In this document: positions 47,424-63,467 of the stretch, piece after piece
How the letters are laid out: each line of letters starts with the position of its first letter
Numbering within the stretch: the stretch's first letter is position 1
From: Pseudomonadota bacterium
GTDB lineage: Bacteria; Desulfobacterota; Binatia; Binatales; Binataceae
Assembly (NCBI GenBank): GCA_021323945.1
Contig: JAJPKA010000020.1
Span: 62,001-126,000 of the forward strand
DNA length: 64,000 nt
Direction: 5' to 3'
Notes under the pieces: generated by a model
The model's input: the letters and a program-made list of their open reading frames with translations, nothing else
Told to the model about the DNA's origin: nothing
The model's database searches: none
Position numbers and translations under genes: made by a program

Positions 47424-48308
47424 TCAAGCTAGATGGTGACTTATGAATTGGCCGACGCCATCCACTGCCTGTTGACCCTCTGGCAGAAATCCAGCGAACA
47501 GCTGAAAAACGTGGATCATCTCAGGCCACACTTCGAGCTTCACTTCCACCCCTGCGGCACGCGCTCGCTGAGCCAATCGGTTGGAGTCATCCAAGAGGGT
47601 TTCGGCATCTCCGACCTGAATCAGCAATGGCGGCAAGCCGGTGAGATCGGCATACAGCGGGGCGGCGAGCGGCGTTCGCGCATTCTTGCCGCCGAGGTAT
47701 GCTGCCGCCATTTGGGTTAACATGTCGCGACGGACAACCGGGTCTGCATGCTGGCGGGTCTTCATCGATTCCCCGATTCCTTCCAAATCCACCCACGGGG
47801 AAAGGCAAACTCCGGCTGCGGGGAGCGGCAATTTGTCGTCCCGAATCGCGACCAGCGTTGCGACGACCAAGCCACCACCGGCTGAATCGCCCGCAACCGC
47901 GATCCGGGATGCGTTAAGGCCCCGTTCCAACATCCATTTGTATGCAGCAACCGAGTCTTCAACTGCGGCCGGGAACGGATGCTCTGGAGCAAGCCGATAA
48001 TCGAGTCCTAACACCCGAGCCTTGGCCGCTCTCGATATACGGCCCATCAGGTCGCGATGCGTCTTAATCGAGCCAACGACATAGCCACCACCGTGAAGAT
48101 AGAGCACGGCCCGTTCGGGATTAGCGCCGGGTGCAAAGATCCACTCAGCCGGGACGCCGCCGGCGGTCACTGGCTCGCTCTTTATATCTGCTTCTGCAGG
48201 AGCGGCCATTTGTTCGAATAAGGCGCGCATTTCCTGCGGAGTCGAGGCCTGCGCTTGTGACAATGCCTTCATGGCAGCAATCGCCTGTTGTAGTTGGGGA
48301 CTCGCCAT
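47424..48308 (-). CDS. Alpha/beta hydrolase, HSL-type esterase
   Basis: 294-residue esterase or lipase of the hormone-sensitive-lipase group. The oxyanion motif H-G-G-G (LYLHGGGYVVGS), the nucleophile elbow G-D-S-A-G-G-G, the family Asp in QVGDAETLLDDS and the His in PEMIHVFQLF are present. ATG at 48308 follows AGAGGAG at a good distance. Last of the leftward series from the LLM gene. Substrate not predictable. Confidence 0.93.
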   Translation of the reverse strand: MASPQLQQAIAAMKALSQAQASTPQEMRALFEQMAAPAEADIKSEPVTAGGVPAEWIFAPGANPERAVLYLHGGGYVVGSIKTHRDLMGRISRAAKARVLGLDYRLAPEHPFPAAVEDSVAAYKWMLERGLNASRIAVAGDSAGGGLVVATLVAIRDDKLPLPAAGVCLSPWVDLEGIGESMKTRQHADPVVRRDMLTQMAAAYLGGKNARTPLAAPLYADLTGLPPLLIQVGDAETLLDDSNRLAQRARAAGVEVKLEVWPEMIHVFQLFAGFLPEGQQAVDGVGQFISHHLA

Positions 48309-48896
48309 CGCCGATTCTCCTCTACGTCGCTGATCCTTGGTAAATGGGCGTGACTGGGAGCCGCTTCCGGTGCTGCCGAGCAACCCGTGTGCTGAAGCGC
48401 TGGCTTGCATCGACCGCGCTGGAGTCGGCCGTGCAGAACAATGCATCACACGACACCGATCATCGCACCCCGTAACCTCAGCGGAGCTTAACTGAGTCGA
48501 GCTTCGATAGCCAGATTAGACGCTGGCACTCGTCGAAAGCAGTTTCCGACTGGTCCACTATGGGTGGCTAAGAGCAGGACCACCATCAGGTTGTATGACA
48601 ACGTAGGAGATTTCAAATCTTCAGCATGTCAGGCTGGTTCTTTGCGCGATGCGAAGCGCCTCCGACTTTCACGGGTAACCAAATTTTGGTTTGAACCCAC
48701 CCCATAGACCATCCGAGCGGAGCGCGCCGACTTTGCTGCTCGCCATTTCGGTCTCTCGTCGAGTGCGGCCCTGCTGAGCCAGACCTCAGACCTCAACCCT
48801 GAATTTTCGCAGCGCCCGGCACAGTTCGCGCATCGGCGTAACATCCAGTCGACAGGAGGGTAATCACCGAAGCCTTACCGTAATCCGTACTACCAC
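48309..48896. other. Intergenic region
   Basis: About 590 bases between the esterase and LLM genes. Short open frames exist but none has a family resemblance or a ribosome site; nothing else recognised. Confidence 0.4.
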
Positions 48897-49811
48897 TTAC
48901 TTGAAGGCGGGAACGACTTCCTCAGCAATCAGCCTCATGTTCTGCTCGATATCTTCCTGACGACATGCCCAGCTCACCAGCACGGTCCGCGCACCGGCGT
49001 CGACGTACTCTTTTAGTCGTTTACGGCAATCGTCAGGATTGCCGTAAAGCGTGTACCGTCCGGCAATTTTGGAAAAGTCCTGCGCGTAATTCTTTCCCAA
49101 AGCCCGTGCCGCCTGCTCACGCGCTTCATCCCGGTTCGGATAGACTGAAGCGAAGATAAACAGCCCTGGCCGAAACGCGCTCAAGTCGCGCCCAACTTCC
49201 TTGGCGAATTGATGAATTTTTTCGATGCTGTCGTGCAACATCTCCGGCGTGTACATGTAAGGTATCCAGCCGTCCGCATAGAGCGCCGCCCGACGCATCG
49301 CCGATTCTTTGCGTCCCGCCACCCAGATCGGAGGATGCGGTTGCTGAACCGGATGCGGGTCGAGAGTGACTCCGGAAAATTTGGAGAAGCGCCCTTCGAA
49401 GCTAACGTTCTTTTCGGTCCAAAGCTTTTTGATGACTTGCAACGCCTCATTCGCTCGCGAGCCGCGCTGCTTGACCGGTACGCCGCAGGCTTCGAATTCT
49501 TTGGGAAATTCGCCGCCTACTCCGATGCCCAGGTGATATCGGCCGTTAGAAGCAACGTCGAGCACCGAGGTCATCTTTGCCAGAACCATCGGTGTGTAGA
49601 GTGGCAGCAGTACCACCGTACTCATTAGTTTGATTTTCGAAGTCGCCCCTGCCGCCACCGCCAGCGTTATAAGGGAGTTGGGAACCGCTCCGTGAAACAT
49701 CATGTGCTCCCCGGAGCACAAGTAGTCATAACCCAGACTCTCGGCCATCTTGGCCGCTTTTGGAATGTCCTTCATCGAAGCCAGTGCTGCGCCGAAGTCA
49801 ACCGATGTCAT
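48897..49811 (-). CDS. LLM-class F420-dependent oxidoreductase
   Basis: 304 residues, third luciferase-like protein. KIKLMSTVVLLPLYTPMVLAKMTSVLDVASNGRYHLGIGVGGEFPKEFEACGVPVKQRGSRANEALQ is typical of the TIGR03619-type class, and the terminal region RYTLYGNPDDCRKRLKEYVDAGARTVLV is also family-like. The ATG at 49811 follows AAGGGAGA. Near the CoA-transferase genes on the same strand, after a gap of 310 bases, so it could act in the same pathway. Confidence 0.9.
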   Translation of the reverse strand: MTSVDFGAALASMKDIPKAAKMAESLGYDYLCSGEHMMFHGAVPNSLITLAVAAGATSKIKLMSTVVLLPLYTPMVLAKMTSVLDVASNGRYHLGIGVGGEFPKEFEACGVPVKQRGSRANEALQVIKKLWTEKNVSFEGRFSKFSGVTLDPHPVQQPHPPIWVAGRKESAMRRAALYADGWIPYMYTPEMLHDSIEKIHQFAKEVGRDLSAFRPGLFIFASVYPNRDEAREQAARALGKNYAQDFSKIAGRYTLYGNPDDCRKRLKEYVDAGARTVLVSWACRQEDIEQNMRLIAEEVVPAFK

Positions 49812-50121
49812 CGTGCGTCTCCCTTGCAATTGATGGCTTGTTTCATCGCATCAGATCAGACTGAGCAATTTGCGTTAGCCGGCAAAGATCTTGTCGTAGA
49901 TCAAGGGCCGTTCCAAGGTTGCTTTTGGGCAAAGCGAACGACTCAACCCGATCGCATCTGCGGCCTCGGAGCGGTCCCGGAAACCCAGTTGTAGCCCCGG
50001 GTCTCGCTTAAACGAACGAGCGTGGATCATCTTGATATGCCTTGCCGTGGACGGTTTGAACCGACAACGACAGCGATTTATGACCGCCGTTCGCGCAGCG
50101 AGGATGCTGCCCGTTGTAAGC
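49812..50121. other. Intergenic region
   Basis: Gap between the second CoA transferase and the LLM gene, both leftward. No gene or recognisable signal seen. Confidence 0.35.
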
Positions 50122-51372
50122 TCAACCCAGTGCTCCGCTGCTCACCAGCTCGGCGATGCGAACCTCGTCGTAACCAAGGATTTGCTCTAGCACGTATTGA
50201 TTATGCTGGCCCAACGTGGGTGCCGCACGCTCAACCCGAGCAGGGGTGCGAGACAGCTTGAAACGCGAGTTCTCGACCCACGTTGTACCGAGCTCCGGAT
50301 GAGGCACTTCGACGAAATGCTTCCGATGCTGGAGCTGTTGATCCTGATACAAATCAACGGCGGTCTGGACCACGTGGGCGGGCACGCTGCGAGCTTGTAA
50401 AAGTCGCTCGATTTCATGTGCATCGAGCCTGCAAGTCCATTGATTGATGATGCGGTCCAATTCGTCGCAGTTCACCTGACGCGCCTTAAATGTGCTGAAA
50501 CGGGCATCAGCTGCCAGTTCCGGGACATTCATCGCGGCACATAACGCTAACCACTCCTGCTCAGTGCGACAGGCGATCGCCACCCATCGATCCTCGCCAG
50601 CCGCGGCGTATACGCCGTGTGGCGCACAGTACAGGTCTCGGTTGGCAACCGGTTCGTAGTTTCGACCGTTAGCGGTGAAGTCAGCGATTGGCAGAGCCAG
50701 AAACTGCAGAGCGGATTCCGCCTGCGCCTGATCGATATACTGACCTTCGCCAGTCAGACGCCGGTGAATTAGCGCCGCCATAAGCGCGCAAACGCCAAAG
50801 CGAGGAGCGATGTAATCGGTGTAAGCGCTAAACGGCCCAGACGGTTGGCGGTCCGGCCATCCGACCAGATAATAAAACCCGCAGAGCGCAGCGGCCAGAT
50901 TGCCGAATCCGGCAAATTGCGATAGCGGACCGCTTTGGCCCATCAAGCAGGTGCTCAGCATGATCAGATCGGGCTTGACTTGTCTCAGAGACTCATAATC
51001 AAGGCCCCAGGCCCGCATAGCCTTGGGTGAAAATGCTTCGCACACCACGTCGGCCCAGCGTACCAGATCCAGGACGATTGTCCGCGCTCCGGGAGTAGAC
51101 AGGTCAAGTGTGATTCCGAGCTTCCCGGCATTGTTATTAGCCCATAGGCCCGAGCTCTCTGAACCACTCTTGCCGTCCTTGAACGGGCCCACGGTCCGGA
51201 CGGGATCGGTACGGCTCACTGATTCCACGCGGACCACGGTTGCCCCGTAGTCGGCTAGTGTTCGCGTGATGCCTGGCCCTGCCAGCACCCACATAAAATC
51301 CAGAATCTTTACATCTTCTAAGGGTAGTCTGGCTGCCAGCTGCCCGGCTTCCTTTGATGCCATCCCCGTCAC
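50122..51372 (-). CDS. Family III CoA transferase (CaiB/BaiF), second of pair
   Basis: 416 residues. LEDVKILDFMWVLAGPGITRTLADYGATVVRVESVSRTDPVR is the standard N-terminal Rossmann opening; NNNAGKLGITLDLSTPGAR and SGPLSQFAGFGN are family motifs. The conserved region around the catalytic aspartate in formyl-CoA transferase reads GEGQYIDQAQAES here, so the Asp appears replaced by Glu. The GTG start at 51372 overlaps the TAG of the upstream CoA-transferase gene by one base (TAGTG); ATG at 51363 is the alternative. The tight pair suggests a two-subunit enzyme. Confidence 0.92.
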   Translation of the reverse strand: MTGMASKEAGQLAARLPLEDVKILDFMWVLAGPGITRTLADYGATVVRVESVSRTDPVRTVGPFKDGKSGSESSGLWANNNAGKLGITLDLSTPGARTIVLDLVRWADVVCEAFSPKAMRAWGLDYESLRQVKPDLIMLSTCLMGQSGPLSQFAGFGNLAAALCGFYYLVGWPDRQPSGPFSAYTDYIAPRFGVCALMAALIHRRLTGEGQYIDQAQAESALQFLALPIADFTANGRNYEPVANRDLYCAPHGVYAAAGEDRWVAIACRTEQEWLALCAAMNVPELAADARFSTFKARQVNCDELDRIINQWTCRLDAHEIERLLQARSVPAHVVQTAVDLYQDQQLQHRKHFVEVPHPELGTTWVENSRFKLSRTPARVERAAPTLGQHNQYVLEQILGYDEVRIAELVSSGALG

Positions 51373-52613
51373 TAGACAACCCCTTGCCTCTGCAATTGGT
51401 CAAACTCGCGATCGCTAATCTGCAGCTCCCCAATCAGAACTTCTCGGTTATGTTCACCGATCCTCGGCGGAGGCCGCCGAAACCCGATCGGGCTCGCGCT
51501 AAAGCGAGCAAACGGGCCAGGATAGGTGATTGTGGCACCTGTCTCCGGATGATTGAGTTTTTGCCAGCACTCGCGTGCGATAAATTGAGGATTATGCAGC
51601 ACGTCGTCGATCGTCGATACCGGCGCAATTAAGAGGGTGCGCTGCCGCGCGGCTTCAAACAACTCGGCCTTGGTCTTTTGCTGGAAAAATTCAGCGATTA
51701 CGCGTTTGCAACGTTCGTATTCCTGAAGCGGCCGACGGCCCGAGAGCAATTCGGCGCCGTAGCCGACCCAATCTGTGTCGCGCATCGCCCGGTCGCACCC
51801 ACCCTGTTCATACAGATAATCCATAAACTTGCGTGTGAACGGGCCCAGTGCCGAACCGAACAAAAAGACAAACGTGATCAGCCCGTCCTTGGCTTTCCAG
51901 ACCAACGGCACTCGAAGCGAACCGAGCTGGGCTCCGCCCGCCATTCGACGGGTCTCCTCTCCTCGAAGTGGAGCTGTCAGTGCGGTGGATTGGTTGGCGA
52001 GCCCCACGCTCTCCTGTGCAGCTACATCAACATGTTGGCCGATTCCCGAGTTGAGCCGTTCATAGTACGCAATCAAGGCGGCCCCGGCAGCATCGACGCT
52101 CGCATGAAGGTACGCCTGAGGGACGCTCATTCTAATAGGTGGGCGATCTTCATCGCCGTACAGGATTAACACACCGCCGGCCGCCATGATTATCAAATCG
52201 CTATCGGCATAACTGGCCTTGGGACCGTGCTGACCGAACGGGGTAATCGACACCATCACCAGCTTTGGGTTGAGCGCACTCAACGAATCGTAGCCGAGGC
52301 CCCGCGCGCTCCAATAGCCCGGATTTGCCGATTCGATCACGAAATCCGCGTTACGAACCAATTGTCGGAAGATGTTGCGGCCTTGTTCTTGTTCCAAGTC
52401 CAGTGTGATTCCCCGCTTGTTGCGGTTATACGCCCACCAATAGACCGAGCGCTCAGTTACAGCGCCGTCCTTAAAGAATGGTGGAAGAAGCCGCTCACGT
52501 GCTCCCCCAACCGGCTCGATCTTGATAACGTCAGCTCCAAGATCAGCCAATACCTGCCCACAGAGGAAGCCTCGCTCAGTCGTCAGGTCAAGTACTCGGC
52601 AATGGTTCAACAT
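51372..52613 (-). CDS. Family III CoA transferase (CaiB/BaiF), first of pair
   Basis: 413 residues. RVLDLTTERGFLCGQVLADLGADVIKIEPVGGARER opens the fold, followed by NRNKRGITLDLEQEQGRN and TPFGQHGPKASYADSDLIIMAAGG. The catalytic-Asp position is GIGQHVDVAAQES, again with Glu instead of Asp. It differs clearly from its neighbour, so the two are paralogues rather than a recent duplication. Probably transfers CoA between carboxylic acids in the surrounding catabolic cluster. Confidence 0.92.
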   Translation of the reverse strand: MLNHCRVLDLTTERGFLCGQVLADLGADVIKIEPVGGARERLLPPFFKDGAVTERSVYWWAYNRNKRGITLDLEQEQGRNIFRQLVRNADFVIESANPGYWSARGLGYDSLSALNPKLVMVSITPFGQHGPKASYADSDLIIMAAGGVLILYGDEDRPPIRMSVPQAYLHASVDAAGAALIAYYERLNSGIGQHVDVAAQESVGLANQSTALTAPLRGEETRRMAGGAQLGSLRVPLVWKAKDGLITFVFLFGSALGPFTRKFMDYLYEQGGCDRAMRDTDWVGYGAELLSGRRPLQEYERCKRVIAEFFQQKTKAELFEAARQRTLLIAPVSTIDDVLHNPQFIARECWQKLNHPETGATITYPGPFARFSASPIGFRRPPPRIGEHNREVLIGELQISDREFDQLQRQGVV

Positions 52614-52782
52614 TTTTCGTCAGCGGGGCTCTGTCACACGATGCCCCAGACTCGACATCCGCAGGGGTCAGCGCTTTTTTCCCGTTTCGCGGAACTTGAG
52701 AATGTGAATCTACTGGTCACTCGGTCGGCAGCTTCTGGCAGGGCATTCGCTACTCGTCTGCGAAACCCAATCGGCATTGTGG

Positions 52783-53247
52783 TTAGCTATCGACTCGTTG
52801 ATCCAGCTGCAGCATGATCCCGTCTGGATCCTCGAAGAGGCAGGTCAGATATTTCCGCCCAGAGGTTTCGCCATAAGCGCCGGCATCGGTCTCGTATGGA
52901 GGAACGAGGATCTTTACGCCCGCCGCCTTGAGCTTTTCATGAATCGCCCGAATATCATCGACCCACCAGGAGATGTGAGAGATCCCTACTTGGTCGAGCT
53001 TGATTGCCTCGCCCGGCGTACCACCCGGCATCTCAGTCAGGACGAGAAAGCCGCGGCCTTCGCCTTTGCCGTAATGAAGATGCACCGCGCGGCGCTGGCC
53101 CTTTTGTGGATTAGCGTACAGGTTGGCCATTCCGCCGATGGGCTGCATCTGATCGTATCTGACTTCGAGACCCAGCAGGTCGCGGTAAAATTTCAGCGAC
53201 CGCTCCATGTCACGCACCCCGATCGCAACATGCGAGATTCCATTCAT
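52783..53247 (-). CDS. VOC-family (glyoxalase/dioxygenase fold) protein
   Basis: 154 residues. Two beta-alpha-beta-beta-beta halves: ISHVAIGVRDMERSLKFYRDLLGLEV and GISHISWWVDDIRAIHEKLKAAGVKIL ... CLFEDPDGIMLQL. Metal-ligand positions are His5, the His of ISH and the Glu of F-E-D-P-D-G. It is closely related to the next gene upstream, so a tandem duplication is likely. ATG preceded by AAGGAG. Possible isomerase, lyase or dioxygenase; substrate unknown. Confidence 0.9.
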   Translation of the reverse strand: MNGISHVAIGVRDMERSLKFYRDLLGLEVRYDQMQPIGGMANLYANPQKGQRRAVHLHYGKGEGRGFLVLTEMPGGTPGEAIKLDQVGISHISWWVDDIRAIHEKLKAAGVKILVPPYETDAGAYGETSGRKYLTCLFEDPDGIMLQLDQRVDS

Positions 53248-53274
53248 ACGCTGCTCCTTGTTCTCAGCTGGTGC

Positions 53275-53733
53275 TTATAGTCGCTGATCGAATTGCACAA
53301 TGGTGCCGTCGGGGTCTTCAAATAGCGCAGTCAGTACCTTGCCACCAGGAGGCTCACCGTAGGCAACCGTATCGGTTTCAGTCGGCGGCAAAAGAATCTT
53401 GACGCCAGCGGCTTTGAGCTTCTCGACACGCTCGCGCAAGTCGTCGACCCAAAACGAAAAGTGATGCAGCCCGACCTGATCGATTTTCAGAGGGCGGCCG
53501 CTGGGTTCGCCGGGGTTTTGAGACAGCACGATGAAGCTGGCGTGAGGTCCATCTTCGAATCGCATGTAAACTGCTCGTCGCTCGCCTTTCCGCGCGGTGG
53601 CGAACAATGGGCCGGAGCCTCCGATGCGCTCCATCGTATCCAGAGTGACGCGCAACCCCAGTAGATCGCGATAGAAATGAAGCGCACGCTCCATGTCACT
53701 GACGCCGATGGCGATATGGGAAACCGCTCGCAT
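53275..53733 (-). CDS. VOC-family protein, paralogue of the next gene downstream
   Basis: 152 residues; VSHIAIGVSDMERALHFYRDLLGLRVTLDT and LHHFSFWVDDLRERVEKLKAAGVKILLPP ... ALFEDPDGTIVQF. Same metal-ligand pattern as its neighbour. The ATG is preceded by AAGGG. It and its neighbour are separated by 27 bases and run with the amidohydrolase and CoA-transferase genes. Confidence 0.9.
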   Translation of the reverse strand: MRAVSHIAIGVSDMERALHFYRDLLGLRVTLDTMERIGGSGPLFATARKGERRAVYMRFEDGPHASFIVLSQNPGEPSGRPLKIDQVGLHHFSFWVDDLRERVEKLKAAGVKILLPPTETDTVAYGEPPGGKVLTALFEDPDGTIVQFDQRL

Positions 53734-53840
53734 CTTTTTTACCCTTGTTCTGCGGCCTTGCTTCGGTTCTCTCCTGGTCAGGCATCGATGGGTTACACCA
53801 AAGCTCGGCGTTCGACCAAATCAAAACCGCCGCGAGCGTG

Positions 53841-55319
53841 TTAAGCTCGCGCGCCTTCTCGGTCCGGACTCTCACTTGCGGGTTGCGCTGGCCTGACCTG
53901 TTCCTCAACCAGGGTACCCTTGAAGAAATCACGATTTGTGCCTGTCCAAAACTCAACCGGATAGGTACAGACAAAGTCACGGAAGTCTTCGGCAGAGATC
54001 AAACCCTCTTCTACCAGCTCATGCGCCTCGACCAGCACCTCCCGCATGTTGGGAACGTCGAAGTGCCCAATATCAGAACCGAACAAAGGCTTGAGCCGTG
54101 CTCCGTAGGGATTCACCCGGGTGTTGAAGGCCCATGCATTTATCGGATCGTCTGCTTCGCAACCAAAATAGAAATTGCGGGTGAACAGCTCGCGAAAGTC
54201 CTCCGGGTGCTGAATGCCGCAGGCCGCATAATCATCGATCATATCTCGGCCACGCGCTGCCCAAGCGGCCGCGAATTCCTCGCCTTCTGATACCGATTGC
54301 CATTGGTCGAGCTTTTCAGCTGCTTCGCGACCGCAATACCTGGCGAACATCTCCCGCAAAAGAGAGCGGTCCAGGTTGGCTGGATTTACCTCGGCCAGAG
54401 CATCGTAGTTTCGCTTTTTCCAGTGACCAATAAGGTCCGCGTAAAGCTGGCAGGCCCAGCCTACGCCTCCTTCAAGAAAGGCAAATTTCAAGTTTGGAAA
54501 TCGTCGGGTAACGCCACCCAGGAACAGAGCCTTGCACACCGCCTCGCCTGCGCTGGCAAAATGACCGATGTGGTTATAGGTGAAATTCGAGGGCGACATG
54601 CGCAAACCAAGGCCCCGTCCCGCGCTATGAAAAGTTGGCGCAAAGCCGAGATCCAGACATTTCTGCCACACCGGATCGTAGTCATACTCACTGTCCAGCC
54701 CCAGGACGTCATACCAAACTGCCGTGCGATGCCCACCGTTTCCGGCATACGCGGGGATCGGCCGTCGAATCAAACTACCCATCACGACGGCCTTAAGCCC
54801 GAGGTTTTTTACGTGCTCCAGCTCGGCGATGGCCTCTGCCGGCGTATTCATTGGAATGGCGGCAGCTGGCGTCAGGCGGTCGGCAAATTCGCGAAAGGTC
54901 TCAGCAATATATAGGTTGAACGCATGGCAGGTTGCCTGACGGATTTCATCGTTCCGAATGGCGTAAATACCGAGTCCTTGAGTGGGATAGAGCACGGCGA
55001 AGTCGAAGCCCAGTTCATCCATCCGCTGATACAATAACCTCGGGATCATGGCGGTGGCCCGATCAAGGGTGTTCCTGGTCGGAAACGGCCACCACGATTG
55101 CTGGGCCCGGCGTTCATTGCGCCGTTGCTCCAATGACATTCTGACAATCCGGCCAACGATCTCGTCGCCCGCTTTCATGCCCTCAACCGCTTTGGTGCCG
55201 GCCACGCGTTGAAGGTACTCAAGCAACAGCGGAAAATATTCGACCCAATGGCCATCGGAATCAATCACGGGATGATTAAGGCTTGCACGGATCTGCGCGG
55301 GATCATGATTGCTCGACAT
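53841..55319 (-). CDS. Amidohydrolase family (amidohydrolase 2 / decarboxylase-like) protein
   Basis: 492 residues from the ATG at 55319, which follows GGAGGG; the open frame continues to 55757 but that part has no family features. HPVIDSDGHWVEYFP matches the first metal-binding strand (D-x-D-G-H, a variant of D-x-H-x-H/D-x-D-S-H), AVLYPTQGL, PTFHSAG (metal or catalytic His) and AFLEGGVGWACQLYADL are typical of the ACMSD-like amidohydrolase_2 group. SDIGHFDVPN gives the late Asp-His. Members act as decarboxylases or hydrolases on aromatic acids; this is a family inference. Confidence 0.9.
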   Translation of the reverse strand: MSSNHDPAQIRASLNHPVIDSDGHWVEYFPLLLEYLQRVAGTKAVEGMKAGDEIVGRIVRMSLEQRRNERRAQQSWWPFPTRNTLDRATAMIPRLLYQRMDELGFDFAVLYPTQGLGIYAIRNDEIRQATCHAFNLYIAETFREFADRLTPAAAIPMNTPAEAIAELEHVKNLGLKAVVMGSLIRRPIPAYAGNGGHRTAVWYDVLGLDSEYDYDPVWQKCLDLGFAPTFHSAGRGLGLRMSPSNFTYNHIGHFASAGEAVCKALFLGGVTRRFPNLKFAFLEGGVGWACQLYADLIGHWKKRNYDALAEVNPANLDRSLLREMFARYCGREAAEKLDQWQSVSEGEEFAAAWAARGRDMIDDYAACGIQHPEDFRELFTRNFYFGCEADDPINAWAFNTRVNPYGARLKPLFGSDIGHFDVPNMREVLVEAHELVEEGLISAEDFRDFVCTYPVEFWTGTNRDFFKGTLVEEQVRPAQPASESPDREGARA

Positions 55320-55750
55320 CACAGCCCTCCGCTGGGCGCGATTGCGCTTGTCTCTAGCAAGCACTAGCGACGGCCGGTCAGGAATGTCAAGGCTTGCGGT
55401 CCCTCTCGCCCCGAACTGAAAGCTGCCGGCTCGACTTTGCGCCATGCGCAAACCCTGATGCTTCACCGCTTCAGACGCTTGCCGACTGGATCGCGGCCTT
55501 TTATTCGCAAAAAAATCAGGAGCACCCTCGAATAGTCTGGAGTCGGAATTCGTCTTTTGGGCAAAGATGGGGAGCAGGCCGGGCCGCCAGGCATTTGAGA
55601 GAAGGGTTTTGAACTTGTTATAAGCGAAGTCCTGTATTTCGCGCCGGGAGCGCAAGCGAGCGGAGAATGTTATGCGCGCTGGCGTACCCTTTCCCCTGCC
55701 TGACAACCTCGGCTTGGCTTCCGGCCCGGCGTAACCCTGGAGGACGGGAA
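55320..55750. other. Divergent region between amidohydrolase and SnoaL-like genes
   Basis: Carries the promoters of both divergent genes. No clear promoter motifs were recognised. Open frames run into it from both sides but lack family similarity. Confidence 0.4.
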
Positions 55751-56176
55751 ATGACATCTGAACTGGAAGACAAAGAGGCGATTCGCGACTTGATGTCAGC
55801 TTATTGCTTCCACGTCGATAATGGCGATTTCGAACAATTCGCGGGACTGTTCACCGAAGACGCCGTCTTCGAGGCTGGACCGTTTGGCAAGCTTCAGGGA
55901 CGCCGCGCCATATACGATTTCATCAATGCGCAAGTTCCCCGCCCCGGCGAAGGGCCGGCGCGCAAACACTGCACGCTTAATCACATCATCCGGATCAACG
56001 GCACCGAGGCGCGAGCCGACAGTTATATCGTAGTCCTACGCGAATCGACTGCCGGCATAATAGCGTCACTGGCCGGCCGCTACGAAGATCTGTTGGTCAA
56101 GCAGGGCGATGAATGGCGTTTTAAAGTGCGTCGGGTGCATTTTGACATATCCGGCGACCTAGGACTGAAGCATTAA
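55751..56176 (+). CDS. SnoaL-like/NTF2-fold protein
   Basis: 141 residues. EDKEAIRDLMSAYCFHVDNGDFEQFAGLFTEDAVFEAGPFGKLQGRRAIYDFI is the classic NTF2-like cone opening seen in SnoaL, ring-hydroxylating dioxygenase small subunits and steroid isomerases. HCTLNHIIRINGTEARADSYIVV and GRYEDLLVKQGDEWRFKVRRVHFD follow. ATG at 55751 has GGAGGACGGG just upstream. Likely catalyses or binds a small aromatic or polyketide-like molecule; substrate unknown. Confidence 0.9.
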   Translation: MTSELEDKEAIRDLMSAYCFHVDNGDFEQFAGLFTEDAVFEAGPFGKLQGRRAIYDFINAQVPRPGEGPARKHCTLNHIIRINGTEARADSYIVVLRESTAGIIASLAGRYEDLLVKQGDEWRFKVRRVHFDISGDLGLKH

Positions 56177-56188
56177 CCGTGCTTGCCC

Positions 56189-58606
56189 TTAACCGCGAGC
56201 TGCGGCCCTATCACTCCGCGGCTGTACGCGCTCGTAACGCCCGATGAATGCCGGATGCTGCCAAGCAATAAATGCGGGCAGAATTAGCACGCCAGCAATC
56301 ATGTTTGTCGCCATTAGAAAAATCAGCAGCACACTCATCTCATTGTGAAACAGCAGGGGAGAGAAGGCCCACGGTACAATTCCGCCTATCATGACCGCGA
56401 ATGTGCTGAAGACCGCGGCTCCTGTGGTCCGCAAGGCGGTCGAAATCGCCTCATCAATTGATGCTCCATTAAGCACTTCATCCTCGATGCGGGCAACTGT
56501 GTATATACCGTAATCGACCCCCAACCCAATACCGAGGGAAATTACCGGGATAGTATCAATCGTGAGCCCAATACCTCGGGCGTTCATGTAAACAAAGGCA
56601 CCGAAATTGGCCATCACGCAAGAAACAATGAATAGAACTCCAGCAATGAAAGAGCGAAAGATAAAAGCGCAGCACAGGTAGATAACCAATAGCACGAAAG
56701 TGATATTGATGAAGTCGAGTCTTTTAAGGACGTCGTTGGCTGCCAGATAAAGGCCGGCTGCCCCACCAAGGTAGCTGATCCTGACTTTGTTCAAAGCGAT
56801 GTCGGGCTCAACCCGCTGATTAATGAAGGTTTGGATGTCGCTGCGAAGATTATTGAGCCGAGTATAGGTGTGGTCCGGTAAGAGCAACCTCATGCAGGCG
56901 CTGGTCATCTTCGGAGAGAAAGCGAAAAAGCGTTCGATTTCTCCCGGCGCCGTGCCGGCCAAGAACATGTACCAAAGATTGCCGCCCAGTTCCGTTCCGC
57001 CAGGAATGCTGCGGTATTTGGGGAAGCTGTAGTGAAAGAGCTGATTGAGCGGCTCGATCGCGATATTGGCAAACGAGACTGTGCCGGCCACGTCACCTCT
57101 GCGCGTGAGATATGCTCCCAAGTCATCTTGCATGCGCAATACTTCTGGACCGATACTCGATTGAGGGTCTGGATAGTTCGGAGTACTTAAGACGATCCAG
57201 CCCTCGTCGGTGGGGAAAAAGCGGCTGACCATTGCGATATCACGATTGACTTTCGATTCGGGGCGATACAGCGGAGTTCCCGGTGTCTCGTAGCCGATGC
57301 GCGCATGCAATCCCGAGATGATACCCCATAAAATAAACAGGGCGCCGCCAGCCAATAGCCCACCCCGCACCGGGCCCGGTGTTACCGGTACATTCAACAG
57401 CCATTCGATTGGGCTTGACCAAAACCCGCTCTTGAGTCGTCGCAAGGGTAGTCGTCGCGGTCTGATTCGAGGTCGCGGCAAGTAACTCATGAAGATTGGC
57501 TGAAATACAAAAACCATCAGCAGACTTGACGCGAGCCAGACGGCACCACCAAGACCGATCTCCTTTAGCACCGGAATTCCGCCGAAGGAGATGAAGACGA
57601 TGCCCGCGATATCCGCCAGAATCGAGAGCAACCCCGGCGGTAACATGACGTCCGTTGTGGTTGCGCATGCGAGCAGCTTGTTATCGAGACGGTCGAGTTC
57701 GTCATAATAGCGGCCTTGCCACTGAATGCCGTGACTGAGGTCGCGAGCGGTCAGAATAAAAGGGATGACCAACATTACGGGATCGAAGTTGTAACGCATG
57801 ATACTGACGAAGCCGAGGCCCCACAGCGCCGAAAACGAACCCGTCACAATCGGTGCCCACCAGCTGCTGCGTCGCCCTAGGCTCAGATATAAGATAAGCA
57901 GCATCAGCGCGATGGAACTGAAGAAAATCACTGTGATGCGCGGCAAGTAGTAATAACCCCATCCTGAGATAACTGGCTGTCCAACGATGTAAAGTTGAGT
58001 TTCGCTGTCGGTAAACTGTCGGACCAGTCTCTGCAGGTCGTCAAACAATTCCCGGTAGTCGAGCCGGTCCTCATTGAAGCTAGCGGTGACCAGCGCCCCT
58101 TTATTATCAGCGGTGATCAAACCCGCTACTTGCTCGAAATGAGCGGCGACATTAGCACGGAGCTGCGACAGAGCCTCCGCCGTTCGCGGTACCTTGGGAT
58201 ACATGAAATTGGTTGAAATTATCGCGCCAGGTATGACCTTGGGAAACGCAACTCGATACGAGGCGAGCGAAAAGATTTCGTTGTGGTCAACGCCGGGAAG
58301 GATATTTACCGCTCCCGTGAGTTCCTGAATCTTGGTCAGGGTCCGCACCGTATAGATGTCTCCGTGCCGTACGCGAAGCAGCAGCATCAGAGTTTGTGCC
58401 CCACCATAGCGGTACTGATACTTGCGGTAGAGCAGCGTATCGGGATGATCCGCGGGGAAGAAATTCTCAAACTTGGTCGCGATCTGGACACGCGCCGCCC
58501 AAAAAGCCATTACCAGCGTTACCGCGATCAGAACGCTGCCAATAATTGCGCGGTATCGTAGGATGTATCTGCCCGGCCGCCAAGTTTCAAACCCATCCGT
58601 GGGCAT
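56189..58606 (-). CDS. MMPL/RND-superfamily exporter
   Basis: 805 residues with about 12 membrane segments and two periplasmic loops (about 50-200 and 420-600). Each half contains a relay-type Asp in the TM4-equivalent helix: FILTARDLSHGIQ and SLGIGLGVDYGIYTVARIEDE. It is a single-polypeptide transporter of the MMPL/HpnN/predicted-sterol-carrier type; the cargo, often lipid or hydrophobic, is unknown. ATG at 58606 follows GGGAG; the frame open to 58633 is not needed. Convergent with the SnoaL-like gene. Confidence 0.93.
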   Translation of the reverse strand: MPTDGFETWRPGRYILRYRAIIGSVLIAVTLVMAFWAARVQIATKFENFFPADHPDTLLYRKYQYRYGGAQTLMLLLRVRHGDIYTVRTLTKIQELTGAVNILPGVDHNEIFSLASYRVAFPKVIPGAIISTNFMYPKVPRTAEALSQLRANVAAHFEQVAGLITADNKGALVTASFNEDRLDYRELFDDLQRLVRQFTDSETQLYIVGQPVISGWGYYYLPRITVIFFSSIALMLLILYLSLGRRSSWWAPIVTGSFSALWGLGFVSIMRYNFDPVMLVIPFILTARDLSHGIQWQGRYYDELDRLDNKLLACATTTDVMLPPGLLSILADIAGIVFISFGGIPVLKEIGLGGAVWLASSLLMVFVFQPIFMSYLPRPRIRPRRLPLRRLKSGFWSSPIEWLLNVPVTPGPVRGGLLAGGALFILWGIISGLHARIGYETPGTPLYRPESKVNRDIAMVSRFFPTDEGWIVLSTPNYPDPQSSIGPEVLRMQDDLGAYLTRRGDVAGTVSFANIAIEPLNQLFHYSFPKYRSIPGGTELGGNLWYMFLAGTAPGEIERFFAFSPKMTSACMRLLLPDHTYTRLNNLRSDIQTFINQRVEPDIALNKVRISYLGGAAGLYLAANDVLKRLDFINITFVLLVIYLCCAFIFRSFIAGVLFIVSCVMANFGAFVYMNARGIGLTIDTIPVISLGIGLGVDYGIYTVARIEDEVLNGASIDEAISTALRTTGAAVFSTFAVMIGGIVPWAFSPLLFHNEMSVLLIFLMATNMIAGVLILPAFIAWQHPAFIGRYERVQPRSDRAAARG

Positions 58607-59026
58607 TGCTCTATCTCCCACTAAGTCTCGCAAGCCGATGCAAAGGGTCCCCAGTTTCGCATCGGAGCGTTGTCTAAAATCACACGCCGCGCAACTCTAG
58701 CAAAGGGCACTCGCCAAAGCACAAGTGGCGAAAAACAGGGACAAACGACTCTCTATATGCCCCTCAGCTTCCTAAAGTCGTCGTGGCTGTTAGTCCGGTG
58801 TGCACGAAATGAAATTCGATTTGACAGCACTTCATTTGACCGCTGTTTGATGTTCTCGCGATGAAAGTTCGATTCCCGCCGTCTTACCATGAAAATTGGC
58901 GACACTTGTGCATTCGATATACGCGGTTATAAGTGTACAGCACAGCTGCGTTCGAACCCTGGCAGAACCAAAAAACGTTAAGCCGGGCGGATCAACCTCG
59001 CTTTCGCGATAAGATGTCCCTTTAAG
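58607..59026. other. Intergenic region
   Basis: Divergent gap between the MMPL gene and the small membrane-protein gene. A TTGACA box lies near 58820 but lacks a clear -10 at the right distance. No gene seen. Confidence 0.4.
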
Positions 59027-60057: not shown

Positions 60058-60675
60058 CTACGGCAGCTTGACAAGACCCACACCTACTAGCGCATCCCGC
60101 GTCACCAGTGAGGCGAGCTGTGCTTCACTCAGTTTCGCCGATCCTGGCGGTCGCTGGGGCAGCACCATGTAGCGAATTTCAGCGCTGCTGTCCCAAACGC
60201 GAATTTCCACCGAGTCCGGCAGATCGAGGCCGAACTCGTGTAGCACGGCACGAGGTTCGCGCACAATGCGCGACCGATACGCCAGCGACTTGTACCAAGC
60301 CGGCGGCAGGCCCAGTATCGGCCAAGGATAACACGAGCAAAGCGTGCAACATATGACGTTGTGCACCCGAGGGGTGTTCTCTACCACCACCATGTGCTCG
60401 CCTTGCATTCCGCCGAAGCCGAGTTCAGCAATTGCTGACGTGCCATCCCGAAGTAATCGCCGTTTGTATTCAGGATCACACCATGCGCGAGCCACCACCT
60501 TCGCACCGTTAAGTGGCCCCACTTCGTTCTCATATATTTCGACCACCCGGTCGATAGCATCGCTGGCGAGCAGACCCTTTTCGACCAATAAGGACTCGAT
60601 AGCTTTGGTTCGCAGTGCCGGCCCAGACAAAGAACGCGGATGATGATGCCCTTGCCGTGACTCCTGTTTGCTCAT
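60058..60675 (-). CDS. nthA: Nitrile hydratase alpha subunit, cobalt-type
   Basis: 205 residues; catalytic subunit of nitrile hydratase, which turns nitriles into amides. The metal claw C-T-L-C-S-C is at 110-115; Thr after the first Cys indicates the cobalt-binding type (iron forms have Ser). [15 protein letters not shown] and [31 protein letters not shown] match well. An extra Cys (C109) precedes the claw. The ATG follows AGGAGTGTT. Thiocyanate hydrolase gamma subunits are related but this matches NHase more closely. Confidence 0.96.
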
Positions 60676-60890
60676 AACACACTCCTGACGTTCTGCTTAG
60701 CCAGGTTTACGCGCGCGCTATTGTCATTCCTCGAGGCTCGTCTTTCTGCTTCGTCGCTCGCTGTGAGCAGTAGAACAAAACGACTACCGGCGAGTCCAAA
60801 CGTCCGCCGTTCGGACGACTCGGCTATTCTGCAACCCAGTACCCCGCCTTCGAGTGCGTTTCGACGCATTTCTTCTTGGAATCGGTTCAA
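60672..60890 (-). CDS. Doubtful small ORF between nthB and nthA
   Basis: 72-codon frame that overlaps both neighbours by four bases: TTGA with the nthB stop and ATGA with the nthA start. The product is Arg-rich with no recognised family. Third-position GC is near half, not clearly higher as expected for a coding frame, and the start is TTG, so the frame may be accidental. Kept because of the symmetrical overlaps. Confidence 0.3.
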
Positions 60891-61570
60891 GCCTTGTCAG
60901 GTTCGAGGTAGCTTTCCCAGAGATCGAGGTGCACGTGGGCTTTTACCTGCGCAGTGTCGCCCCACAATTGCCGCGCTGAGATACGGACTGTGTACAGGTG
61001 CTGAGGATTCTCGCCCAGTCCATGCGCATTGGAGTCGGGGAAAACGTGTGCGCCATGATGCGCTACGATGACTCCGCGCTTGCCACGCGCATAGCGTGGC
61101 AGGCGGGTGTGGCCGCGCGGATTGAGGTTGCGCGTGATTATCTTGTCGCCAATCGCGAAGCGAGGCTTGTGCCGAACCCGCCGTAAAGTCGGTCTTCCCG
61201 TCCGCAGGGCATGAGCGATTTGCCGCGTTCGTTCCGGATCTTCTAAACGAGGGACAGGCTGCTCGGGATCCGTGGTGAACAGCTTGATTCGGTCAGCGAT
61301 CTCGTCGCGGCTGAGCAGGCCAGCCTCGATTGCAGCATTCTCGATCCGGGCCAGCCACCGCTCGTAGTAGCTCGAAGACAGGTACTGGAGCGGATCGAGC
61401 CGCTCCAGTTCGTGACGGAGAGCATCAAGCGATTTTGGCGGCACTCCGGCACCCGTAAGCGCCATCCCAAAAACCCTGCGCTCCCATGGCTCATGGAAGA
61501 CAGGCTCGTTGGCCTCATATTCGATACGGCCAAAGCCGTCCATTCCACCGACGTCATGTACCCCGTTCAA
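60887..61570 (-). CDS. nthB: Nitrile hydratase beta subunit
   Basis: 227 residues, first in the operon. MNGVHDVGGMDGFGRIEYEANEPVFHEPWERRVFGMAL is the characteristic start, and FAIGDKIITRNLNPRGHTRLPRYARGKRGVIVAHHGAHVFPDSNAHGLGENPQHLYTVRISARQLWG is the C-terminal SH3-like barrel. Beta-alpha-accessory order is the pattern of cobalt-type operons. No amidase gene is in the window, so the amide product would be handled elsewhere. Confidence 0.96.
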   Translation of the reverse strand: MNGVHDVGGMDGFGRIEYEANEPVFHEPWERRVFGMALTGAGVPPKSLDALRHELERLDPLQYLSSSYYERWLARIENAAIEAGLLSRDEIADRIKLFTTDPEQPVPRLEDPERTRQIAHALRTGRPTLRRVRHKPRFAIGDKIITRNLNPRGHTRLPRYARGKRGVIVAHHGAHVFPDSNAHGLGENPQHLYTVRISARQLWGDTAQVKAHVHLDLWESYLEPDKA

Positions 61571-62312
61571 AGCGCCGCCTCGCTAATTCTTGCCATATCT
61601 TTTGTTCAGGATTGTCGCAACCAACCAGACTTGGCAAAGCCTACTATCAAAAAGACACGCTGGGCCAGAATTGCTGTAAAGCCACGCCGTATACAAGTGA
61701 TGCACATCGAGCAGACAGACTCTCCTTCGCTTCCAAGATTTACCGGCCTGTCGCTGTTCGGATTTCAATTTGTCTTTCTATGGTTCAGTTGCAGCATGGG
61801 CAACCGTTAAATCGCAGCCTGTTGCTGAGCAATGGGGCAGGATGCTGCGCCCCTGTGTCTGAGCTTAGCTCTCGTTTCTGTAACTGGAAGCGTTGCAGAC
61901 GCCGCTTTCGAGATTTCGATATCGAGCACTGAAGGAATATCGCCACACTGGCGCAACGAGTCACTTTCCGGGATCTCAATTATCGGAATGCCAGCTCTTA
62001 ACATTCGGCTGGGTGACGGCATAATGAGCGAAATTGCAGCTGCGAGCTCAGTGGCACAGTGAGCTGGGCCTTGGCGCATTTCCGGCGCAGCCGTTTGGCC
62101 GTCATATCTTAATCTCGGTTGAACCATTTAGGCCGGGCTGATGCCAATTTGACAAGGACTGGCACTTGCGGCTCGTAAATCTATGCCCTGCTTTACTATG
62201 ACGAAGACCTATCTAAAGCTAACCGCATAGAGCCGAAAATTTCAGCGACACTATTTGGAGAAGGCATTTCACTAGATGTTTTTCAGTCGGTATCGCCGTG
62301 GAGAGCGAGCAA
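61571..62312. other. Long divergent region between nthB and the acyl-CoA dehydrogenase
   Basis: About 740 bases that should hold both promoters. Short frames at 61807-62127 (-) and 61832-62062 (+) overlap each other and lack ribosome sites or family features. No sigma-54 or riboswitch pattern was recognised. Confidence 0.45.
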
Positions 62313-63467
62313 ATGGATTTCGTGTTCGACGCTGACCAGGAATTGCTCCGTCAAACTTTGGCCGATTTCGCCGCACGGGAACTCGCCCCCTTTTACCTGG
62401 AGCGGGATACAGACGAGGACCTTCCACGGGAAGTTGTTCGCAAACTTGGTGAACTCGGCCTGTGCGCACCCATGGCCGAAGCCCGCTATGGCGGCCAAGG
62501 TCTGGATTACGTATCCCTGGGTATCGCGCATGAGGAGATCGCTCGCGGTGATTTTAATGCGGCATATGTGCTGCTGCTAAGTGCGCTTGTCGGCGCAATT
62601 ATTTCGGCCCACGGCAACGAACGTCAAAAACAAATGATGCTGCCGCCAATTTGCCGCGGTGAACACGTTGTTGCACTTGCAGTTACCGAACCGGGTGGTG
62701 GATCGGACGCCGCGCACGTCAAGCTGAGCGGTCGGCGGGACGGCGACTCCTACGTACTTGACGGAGAAAAAACCTCGATTTCGTTTGCCTCGTGGGCCGA
62801 TACCGCCTTGGTGATGGCTCGAACCGGCAGTTATGAAGCGGGCGCACGAGGTGTTAGCACTTTTTACGTCGATTTGCATGCCCCCGGTGTTACCCGAAGC
62901 CGATTCAAGGACCTGGGATCGCGCGCCATCGGCCGTGGTCAACTCTTTTTCGATTCGGTCCGAGTGCCGTCAGACGCACTGATTGGGCAGGAAGGCGCCG
63001 GTTTTGTCGAGGTGATGCAGGGCTTCGATTTCAGCCGTGCCCTGATTGGTTTGATGTGTATCGGAGCAGCGCAGCAGAGCCTCGATGAGACCTGTAAATA
63101 CGTCAGGGAGCGCAACGCATTCGGAGGACCGCTGGCCCGCTTCGAGGGCGTCTCCTTTCCGTTGGCAGAGGCAGCCGTGAAGCTGCGGGCAGCGAGGTTG
63201 TTGTGCTACGAGGCGTTATGGCTCAAGGATCAGGGTCGACCGCATGGATGGGTCGCGGCCGGCGCAAAATGGTGGGCACCGGAATTAGCAGCCCAGGTGT
63301 TACATCAGTGCTTGCTGTTGCACGGCCATCTCGGCTTCAGTCTGGATCTGCCGCATCAGCAACGGCTGCGCGACGTGATTGGTTTGGAGATTGGCGATGG
63401 TACCGCACAAATCATGAAACTGCTGGTCGCGCGCGAGATTATCGGGCAAGTCGCGCGCGGCTATTAG
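62313..63467 (+). CDS. Acyl-CoA dehydrogenase with Asp at catalytic position
   Basis: 384 residues from the ATG at 62313, which follows GGAGAG; a GTG at 62298 is in frame. Flavin and substrate motifs include ALAVTEPGGGSDAA, YVLDGEKTSISFASWADTALVMART, FGGPLARFEGVSFPLAEAAVKL, and a C-terminal LEIGDGTAQIMKLLVAREI. In most members the base is Glu (I-Y-E-G-T); here Asp stands at that place, which is reported for cyclohexanecarboxyl-CoA dehydrogenases. The overall run is consistent with an alicyclic substrate, but it is not proven. The stop overlaps the convergent methyltransferase by four bases. Confidence 0.93.
   Translation: MDFVFDADQELLRQTLADFAARELAPFYLERDTDEDLPREVVRKLGELGLCAPMAEARYGGQGLDYVSLGIAHEEIARGDFNAAYVLLLSALVGAIISAHGNERQKQMMLPPICRGEHVVALAVTEPGGGSDAAHVKLSGRRDGDSYVLDGEKTSISFASWADTALVMARTGSYEAGARGVSTFYVDLHAPGVTRSRFKDLGSRAIGRGQLFFDSVRVPSDALIGQEGAGFVEVMQGFDFSRALIGLMCIGAAQQSLDETCKYVRERNAFGGPLARFEGVSFPLAEAAVKLRAARLLCYEALWLKDQGRPHGWVAAGAKWWAPELAAQVLHQCLLLHGHLGFSLDLPHQQRLRDVIGLEIGDGTAQIMKLLVAREIIGQVARGY

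Follow-up and report, generated by a model that had tools for sequence, protein, structure and literature searches.

What pathway, if any, do the genes at 50122-55319 of this Binatia DNA form, and on what kind of compound would it act? The stretch analyzed (referred to here as the window) is 64 kb long and corresponds to contig C8:62001-126000 of genome G000, which is 3.74 Mb in size and 95.5% complete. The run contains a gene annotated as an amidohydrolase (AHY), two genes of the VOC superfamily (VOC2 and VOC1) and two CaiB-type coenzyme A (CoA) transferase genes (CaiB_E and CaiB_F), and is followed by an LLM-class oxidoreductase gene (LLM) and an esterase gene of the hormone-sensitive-lipase (HSL) type. 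An earlier note on this DNA had suggested that an acid is activated here as a CoA thioester and that a ring or bond is then cleaved; open reading frames and Pfam domains confirm every gene that it named, in place and in domain content. CoA-thioester activation of an acid by the cluster is well supported by the sequences, and can be sharpened to the action of one predicted heteromeric CoA-transferase of the BbsEF type. Cleavage finds no support; AHY looks like a dinuclear oxygenase (a hydroxylase), not a hydrolase.

Two CaiB genes and one predicted CoA-transferase

CaiB_E (51372-52613, minus strand; PF02515, 2.6e-77) and CaiB_F (50122-51372, minus strand; PF02515, 1.7e-103) encode family III CoA-transferase subunits, and the stop of the first shares one base with the start of the second. 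In this family an active-site Asp carries out the covalent chemistry. CaiB_F has this residue (Asp186, aligned with the Asp of other PDB chains), and CaiB_E has Tyr at the same column. Their top PDB matches are the two named subunits of benzylsuccinate CoA-transferase: CaiB_F matches 9fn0_B (2.5e-76; runner-up 2.2e-49) and CaiB_E matches 9fn0_A (4.3e-64; runner-up 7.3e-38). In the alignments one BbsEF chain has the Asp (chain B, like CaiB_F) and the other lacks it (chain A, like CaiB_E). BbsEF is a succinyl-CoA:(R)-benzylsuccinate CoA-transferase (PDB 9fn0; PMC10818641; papers given by PMC number are cited throughout for the part of their text that was available).

Genes in relatives were called mainly by tblastn with the window proteins, and the per-genome searches scored the best candidates only (for example, the best 34, 40 or 27), making the resulting counts lower bounds. 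CaiB_E orthologs stand at 31 loci (at least 402 bits; the next match reaches 328 bits) in 21 of 57 genomes, G000 included, and at 30 of these loci a CaiB_F match follows directly on the same strand (at L173 only the start of CaiB_F is on the contig, and at L171 CaiB_F is split in two; at the 31st locus, L180, the contig stops within CaiB_E). The active-site column holds Asp in all 29 CaiB_F orthologs that cover it, and among the 31 CaiB_E orthologs Tyr in 30 and Trp in one. In a 72-row tree (midpoint root) the E-type (18 rows) and F-type (17 rows) sequences are well supported sister clades, into which BbsEF chains A and B fall, respectively. Because the two genes have different nearest BbsEF chains, keep the Asp in CaiB_F and lack it in CaiB_E, and belong to two sister clades, they are best read as two subunits of one BbsEF-type heteromer.

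The arrangement is repeated within G000. All 57 of its PF02515 copies were read; 25 stand in 12 tandem arrays and 32 are single. The Asp is absent from ten of the 25 tandem copies and from one of the 32 singles (Fisher 0.0006, in a test that treats tandem copies as independent). Exactly one member is Asp-less in ten of the 12 arrays and none in the other two, which would make this genome a natural series of catalytically dead subunits. The tree resolves ten E-F pairs, with one partner in each clade; the arrays C1:180998/182177 and C8:470999/472253 are placed outside the E and F clades on long branches, and apparently lost the Asp separately. Three arrays are single open frames (814 and 830 amino acids, of E-F type, and 868 amino acids, of the other type), which fits an obligate partnership of the two halves. 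Across the 57 genomes an E-type profile (cut-off 1e-98, with at most the best 34 candidates scored per genome) finds at least 311 copies (median 4, maximum 25), and at least one copy in 53 genomes.

Three further observations concern these subunits. An orphan E-type copy in G000 (C8:309762) keeps the Asp, with no PF02515 gene adjoining. G004, G018 and G028 carry 19-25 E-type subunits per genome, and a first look in the same three genomes gave 116-144 unconfirmed AHY-like candidates each. Two single G000 genes, C6:44117 and C22:458068, have relatives that are adjacent in G022 (L180, ~106-2840), one of them without the Asp as judged from site motifs; these relatives are possibly a second kind of heteromeric CaiB pair.

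AHY as a candidate dinuclear oxygenase

AHY (53841-55319, minus strand; likely start 55319, in a frame open to 55757) matches PF04909 weakly (4.5e-10, 40.2 bits). Its top named match, at 85%, is to Candidatus Binataceae Bin.006_Pasture (L029), a relative that suggests Candidatus Binatota as the source of the window; its other matches are labelled Binatia or Binatota, or more broadly (Deltaproteobacteria, Proteobacteria). The candidate ligand set is D22, H24, H231, E283, D416 and H419, plus D421. The metal ligands of AibH2 are Asp25, His27, His211, Glu265, Asp337 and His340, with Asp342 in the second sphere (PMC7782822), and those of LynB7 are D11, H13, H197, E252, D320 and H323, with D325 (PMC10127204); ligand order and local spacing agree with those of AHY (D-x-H; 52 versus 54 residues from H to E; D-x-x-H-x-D). 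All seven AHY residues are present in 88 of 91 rows (the window, G000 paralogs and relatives), the other three being cut-off fragments, although the relatives were gathered with peptide patterns, two of which contain H24 or H419/D421, so that conservation of these positions was favored; H231, E283 and D416 were not part of the patterns.

The AlphaFold model of AHY (predicted local distance difference test [pLDDT] 88, predicted template modeling score [pTM] 0.89) is closest to PtmU3 (PDB 6omp; Z 34.7, root mean square deviation 2.6, 340 residues). The next structure has Z 30.9, a lead of ~4 Z for PtmU3, which ranks first by both Foldseek and VIA. A 31-row AHY profile places DitZ first (5.4e-12) and PtmU3 second (1.2e-10). 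PtmU3 hydroxylates C-5 of diterpenoid-CoA intermediates (PMC10127204; CoA substrate also in PMC7782822), and amidohydrolase-related dinuclear oxygenases (AROs) have been defined as a group and found beside Rieske genes (PMC10811679). Judged by its ligands and its modeled fold, AHY is probably not a hydrolase but a metal-dependent dinuclear oxygenase (hydroxylase); by analogy with PtmU3 we infer acyl-CoA hydroxylation as the best candidate for its reaction.

Similar candidates are numerous in G000, which has 38 PF04909 matches and 82 PF00296 (LLM) matches. Among 34 PF04909 copies examined (four further copies lie outside this set), 31 carry the six ligands, namely 27 of 30 copies plus all four members of the AHY group. 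L278, L287 and L293 fail the six-ligand test, which shows that it discriminates. The acid that follows the last ligand (Asp or Glu) is found in 21 of the 27 ligand-complete copies and in the four of the AHY group. For three of the 31 ARO candidates a CaiB gene and an LLM gene both stand within 3 kb, against 0.28 expected (p 0.0018), and the window cluster is not one of the three; there are three such triads at 4.5 kb (p 0.020) and four at 6 kb (p 0.014), the distance at which the window cluster enters. The triad test was run at six settings (p 0.0018 to 0.020, uncorrected for the six), and here as in the other proximity tests the lengths of three small contigs were guessed. LLM and CaiB genes also lie near one another in G000 (p 0.011). 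Elsewhere in this genome, C14:92565-97405 and C15:204323-206853 are same-strand runs of an ARO candidate, LLM and single CaiB genes that resemble the window cluster in concept.

Recurrence of the genes in related genomes

The earlier note had held that, if the genes are not conserved as a set, their proximity is accidental. The premise proved correct outside the genus, as the complete set was found in two of the 57 genomes searched (G000 and G001, of the same genus); the conclusion finds no support, since pieces of the set turn up together in other genera, newly combined, and this speaks against accidental proximity. Conservation of the complete set was dropped as the argument, the set having been found in one genus only. 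Among 80 named AHY loci, many of which end at contig edges, it is complete at one (L029, the same contig as G001:C375).

VOC1, CaiB_E and CaiB_F occur together in all eight genomes of g1, g6 and g7, with VOC1 directly upstream (gaps of 3-169 bp). AHY is followed by VOC2 in g1 and, within ~85 bp, in G021, where a divergent SnoaL gene lies ~1 kb away (L240); in G007 a VOC2 match with one internal stop lies ~1 kb from AHY. LLM adjoins a different CaiB gene (30-31%) in G013, G022, G025 and G031, and lies within 6 kb of the HSL gene in at least seven of the 22 genomes with an LLM ortholog (at least 60%), several of these loci being truncated. In L088 and L098, weak CaiB pairs (24-29%) lie close to AHY relatives. 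Presence is also correlated across genomes: 16 of the 57 genomes carry orthologs of both CaiB_E and LLM and 11 carry just one of the two (Fisher 1.2e-5, or 0.0018 by genus), with corresponding values of 6.7e-7 for CaiB_E and AHY (by genus 0.0018) and 4e-11 for LLM and AHY (by genus 4.6e-7). These tests treat genomes as independent and handle relatedness only crudely (by genus), and the AHY presence call at 1e-170 takes in paralogs. The pieces seem to be held together by function, though they are not always linked.

VOC, LLM and flanking genes

VOC1 (52783-53247, minus strand) and VOC2 (53275-53733, minus strand), both PF00903 members of the VOC superfamily, stay under the NCBIfam cut-offs (TIGR03081, 40.9 and 36.8 bits versus 114.95; TIGR00068, 31.3 and 28.9 versus 120). 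Methylmalonyl-CoA epimerase, glyoxalase I and the listed extradiol dioxygenases were rejected as assignments, their family cut-offs not being reached. In glyoxalase I and methylmalonyl-CoA epimerase a Glu is the C-terminal metal ligand; the column that aligns with this Glu in a glyoxalase I chain is Gln147 in the VOC proteins, invariant in 10 of 10. From this side too, with Gln in place of Glu and no cut-off reached, the proposed ring or bond cleavage gains no support. The predicted model of VOC1 (pLDDT 66, from 4 rows) was too poor for a fold search.

LLM (48897-49829, minus strand; PF00296; likely start ATG 49811) lies outside 50122-55319. It exceeds the cut-off of the F420 subfamily TIGR03619 (189.8 versus 166.9), and the genome has an F420 pathway gene (CofD equivalog, 304.3 versus a cut-off of 257.45); the oxidoreductase is probably F420-dependent. 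Downstream of it is the HSL-type esterase, an alpha/beta-hydrolase (47424-48449, minus strand; PF07859), for which the best NCBIfam model scores below its own cut-off.

On the other side of the run, the SnoaL-like gene (55667-56176, plus strand) is divergent from AHY, and beyond it stands a gene for an MMPL-family transporter (56189-58633, minus strand; PF03176). Past the MMPL gene are nitrile hydratase alpha and beta genes (60058-60675 and 60887-61570, minus strand). In L092, another Binatia metagenome-assembled genome, a more distant relative of AHY has nitrile hydratase-like genes (65%, 51%) and a SnoaL-like match in its vicinity. An acyl-CoA dehydrogenase gene (62298-63467, plus strand), 10 kb off, is a doubtful part of the cluster; its 77-78% relatives in G029 and G019 lie ~2.5 kb upstream of E-F on the same strand. 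Between the E-F pair and this dehydrogenase G029 has an alpha-L-rhamnosidase-like gene (L164, 7466-9949, minus strand), with a member of the same cluster family in G019.

Proposed pathway and alternative explanations

In the pathway that we propose, CaiB_E and CaiB_F would assemble into a single heteromeric CoA-transferase of family III. Its CoA donor would be succinyl-CoA, by analogy with BbsEF, and its acceptor an acid; the Asp of CaiB_F would do the covalent chemistry, with CaiB_E as a catalytically dead partner. AHY, as an Fe/Fe or Mn/Fe dinuclear oxygenase of the PtmU3/AibH2/LynB7 type, would hydroxylate the acyl-CoA with O2, a step that could open acids resistant to ordinary acyl-CoA dehydrogenation. 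The VOC proteins (as metal-dependent isomerase or lyase), LLM and the esterase would act before or after it. The two-subunit transferase, the Asp pattern, the oxygenase ligand set and the recurrent modules are the sequence-backed parts of this scheme; we infer the assembly, the CoA donor, the order of steps, the acyl-CoA hydroxylation and every role given to VOC, LLM, SnoaL and HSL proteins. Taken whole, an aerobic acyl-CoA pathway in which an acid is activated with CoA and AHY then hydroxylates the acyl-CoA with O2 is, in our judgment, about evenly balanced between right and wrong. The remark in the earlier note that the genes match no standard pathway agrees with the points that could be tested.

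A number of observations count against this pathway. The wider gaps in the run, 169 bp between VOC1 and CaiB_E and ~310 bp between CaiB_F and LLM (from ATG 49811; 92 bp in G001), may interrupt a transcript, and a promoter scan found no signal above shuffles at the cluster (3 versus 3.0); a terminator scan was likewise near the shuffle level (12 versus 8.5, standard deviation 3.1). The Asp is retained in both subunits in two of the ten E-F pairs of G000. Possession of the ligands proves neither a dinuclear site nor O2 chemistry. By fold, the further AROs TruffO, SfbO and AibH1H2 (Z 29-31) overlap decarboxylases (Z 27-30.0), and DitZ (8uyr) is 37th by Z, though second by Foldseek; with a smaller 6-row profile (A1), PtmU3 (3.9e-6) ranks below decarboxylases. 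None of the 11 Rieske matches of G000 falls in the window; a nearby Rieske reductase gene is reported for AibH2 and SfbO and is not known to be required. Beyond the genus, AHY and the E-F pair lie mostly at separate places, and PF04909 genes in G000 are not clearly enriched near CaiB genes (6 of 38, expected 3.3, p 0.11) or near LLM genes (7 of 38, p 0.27). The pattern-based gathering of AHY relatives and the restriction of the complete set to one genus belong on the same side.

AHY might instead be an ordinary mononuclear PF04909 decarboxylase or hydrolase acting on the product of a CoA-transferase branch, which we regard as unlikely. ACMSD and the LigW/5-carboxyvanillate and dihydroxybenzoate decarboxylases reach Z 28-30 to the AHY model and stand above PtmU3 with profile A1, and the characterised PF04909 enzymes outside the AROs are mononuclear or metal-free (PMC10811679). 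Against this stand the first rank of PtmU3 and the residues at the site: E283 and H419 are kept in every row that extends over them, and the E283 column is His in ACMSD and in the G000 copies L278 and L287.

A VOC1-CoA-transferase unit and an AHY-VOC2-SnoaL unit could also be separate and have been joined by chance in one genus, as the rarity of the complete set and the different loci of E-F and AHY in g6 and g7 would allow. The co-presence of CaiB_E and LLM and the triads away from the window both speak against this. So do the repeated adjacency of CaiB_F and LLM in G028, a genome of another genus (where E, F and LLM follow one another at 17 and 108 bp, accompanied by a SnoaL match that is weak [33%], by no VOC and, within ~10 kb, by a pair of PF04909 genes that includes a relative of AHY at 57%), and the presence of AHY, LLM and HSL within 7 kb, with other genes interposed, in L030 and L031/G030. 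We doubt that chance alone assembled the locus.

It is improbable that the cluster is biosynthetic rather than catabolic, making and exporting a modified lipid acid: MMPL and SnoaL genes flank AHY in both genus members and PtmU3 is itself biosynthetic (PMC10127204), but among the loci examined MMPL is linked only within the genus, and G021 keeps SnoaL without MMPL. That E-F is the true BbsEF of an anaerobic toluene or alkane pathway based on fumarate addition, as its place in the BbsEF clades and an acyl-CoA dehydrogenase 10 kb off (as a BbsG-like step would need) might suggest, is highly improbable, and a true benzylsuccinate pathway of anaerobic toluene degradation was rejected, because the 95.5% complete genome has no PFL-like glycyl-radical enzyme (0 matches to PF02901, the family of the glycyl-radical benzylsuccinate synthase, which gives matches in 3 of 14 control genomes) and its ten paralogous E-F pairs point to many substrates.

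Comparison with known systems

The aerobic pathway proposed above bears on two routine annotations that may mislead: the two CaiB genes appear to encode a single heteromer and not two enzymes, and the 'amidohydrolase' is probably an oxygenase. If this is true, many Binatota genes with such annotations carry the wrong assignment, and an uncultured phylum would add enzymes that attack CoA-activated acids with the help of O2. More tentatively still, and with more doubt than confidence, we suggest a modular aerobic metabolism in Binatota, in which many BbsEF-type heteromers (ten pairs here, and as many as 25 E-type subunits in one relative) would load unusual acids, a large set of dinuclear oxygenases hidden behind the amidohydrolase annotation (of 34 copies examined here, 31 carry the ligand set) would hydroxylate the acyl-CoAs, and LLM enzymes would come next; the cluster would be one such module, with a substrate class that is new. 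A search with little coverage of subscription journals found no literature on BbsEF subunits, on inactive family III subunits or on CaiB, CoA transferase or amidohydrolase in Binatota. The available main text of the Binatota paper (PMC8262859) has no mention of CoA transferase, luciferase, benzylsuccinate, amidohydrolase or aromatic, and that of the SAR202 paper (PMC5395668) none of amidohydrolase, VOC or glyoxalase.

As in BbsEF, the family III subunits are of two kinds, only one of them bearing the Asp, and they belong to the same two clades. The genes bbsE and bbsF are likewise adjacent. G000 differs in its lack of a glycyl-radical synthase match, in the VOC, LLM and PF04909 neighbors and in its ten paralogous pairs. 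AHY resembles PtmU3, a diiron hydroxylase of platensimycin/platencin biosynthesis, in fold (it is the closest found), in conserved metal-site residues and in the logic of an acyl-CoA substrate, but identity is 16% over 340 aligned residues, AHY is longer (492 versus 356 residues), PtmU3 has Glu313 where AHY has Asp421, and the neighborhood of AHY is catabolic-looking. With AibH2 and LynB7 it shares the six ligands (D-x-H, H, E, D-x-x-H) and, two residues further, the Asp; it differs from AibH2, SfbO and LynB7 in a window without a Rieske gene and with no AibH1-like partner noticed beside it. At the level of the genome, the closest likeness is to the CaiB and flavin-monooxygenase expansions of SAR202, in which many CaiB-type transferases and oxidoreductases are likewise found in one lineage (PMC5395668), G000 being set apart by its tandem heteromers and its PF04909 candidates. 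The cluster matters as an entry to an expanded repertoire of transferases and oxygenases rather than as a new kind of system.

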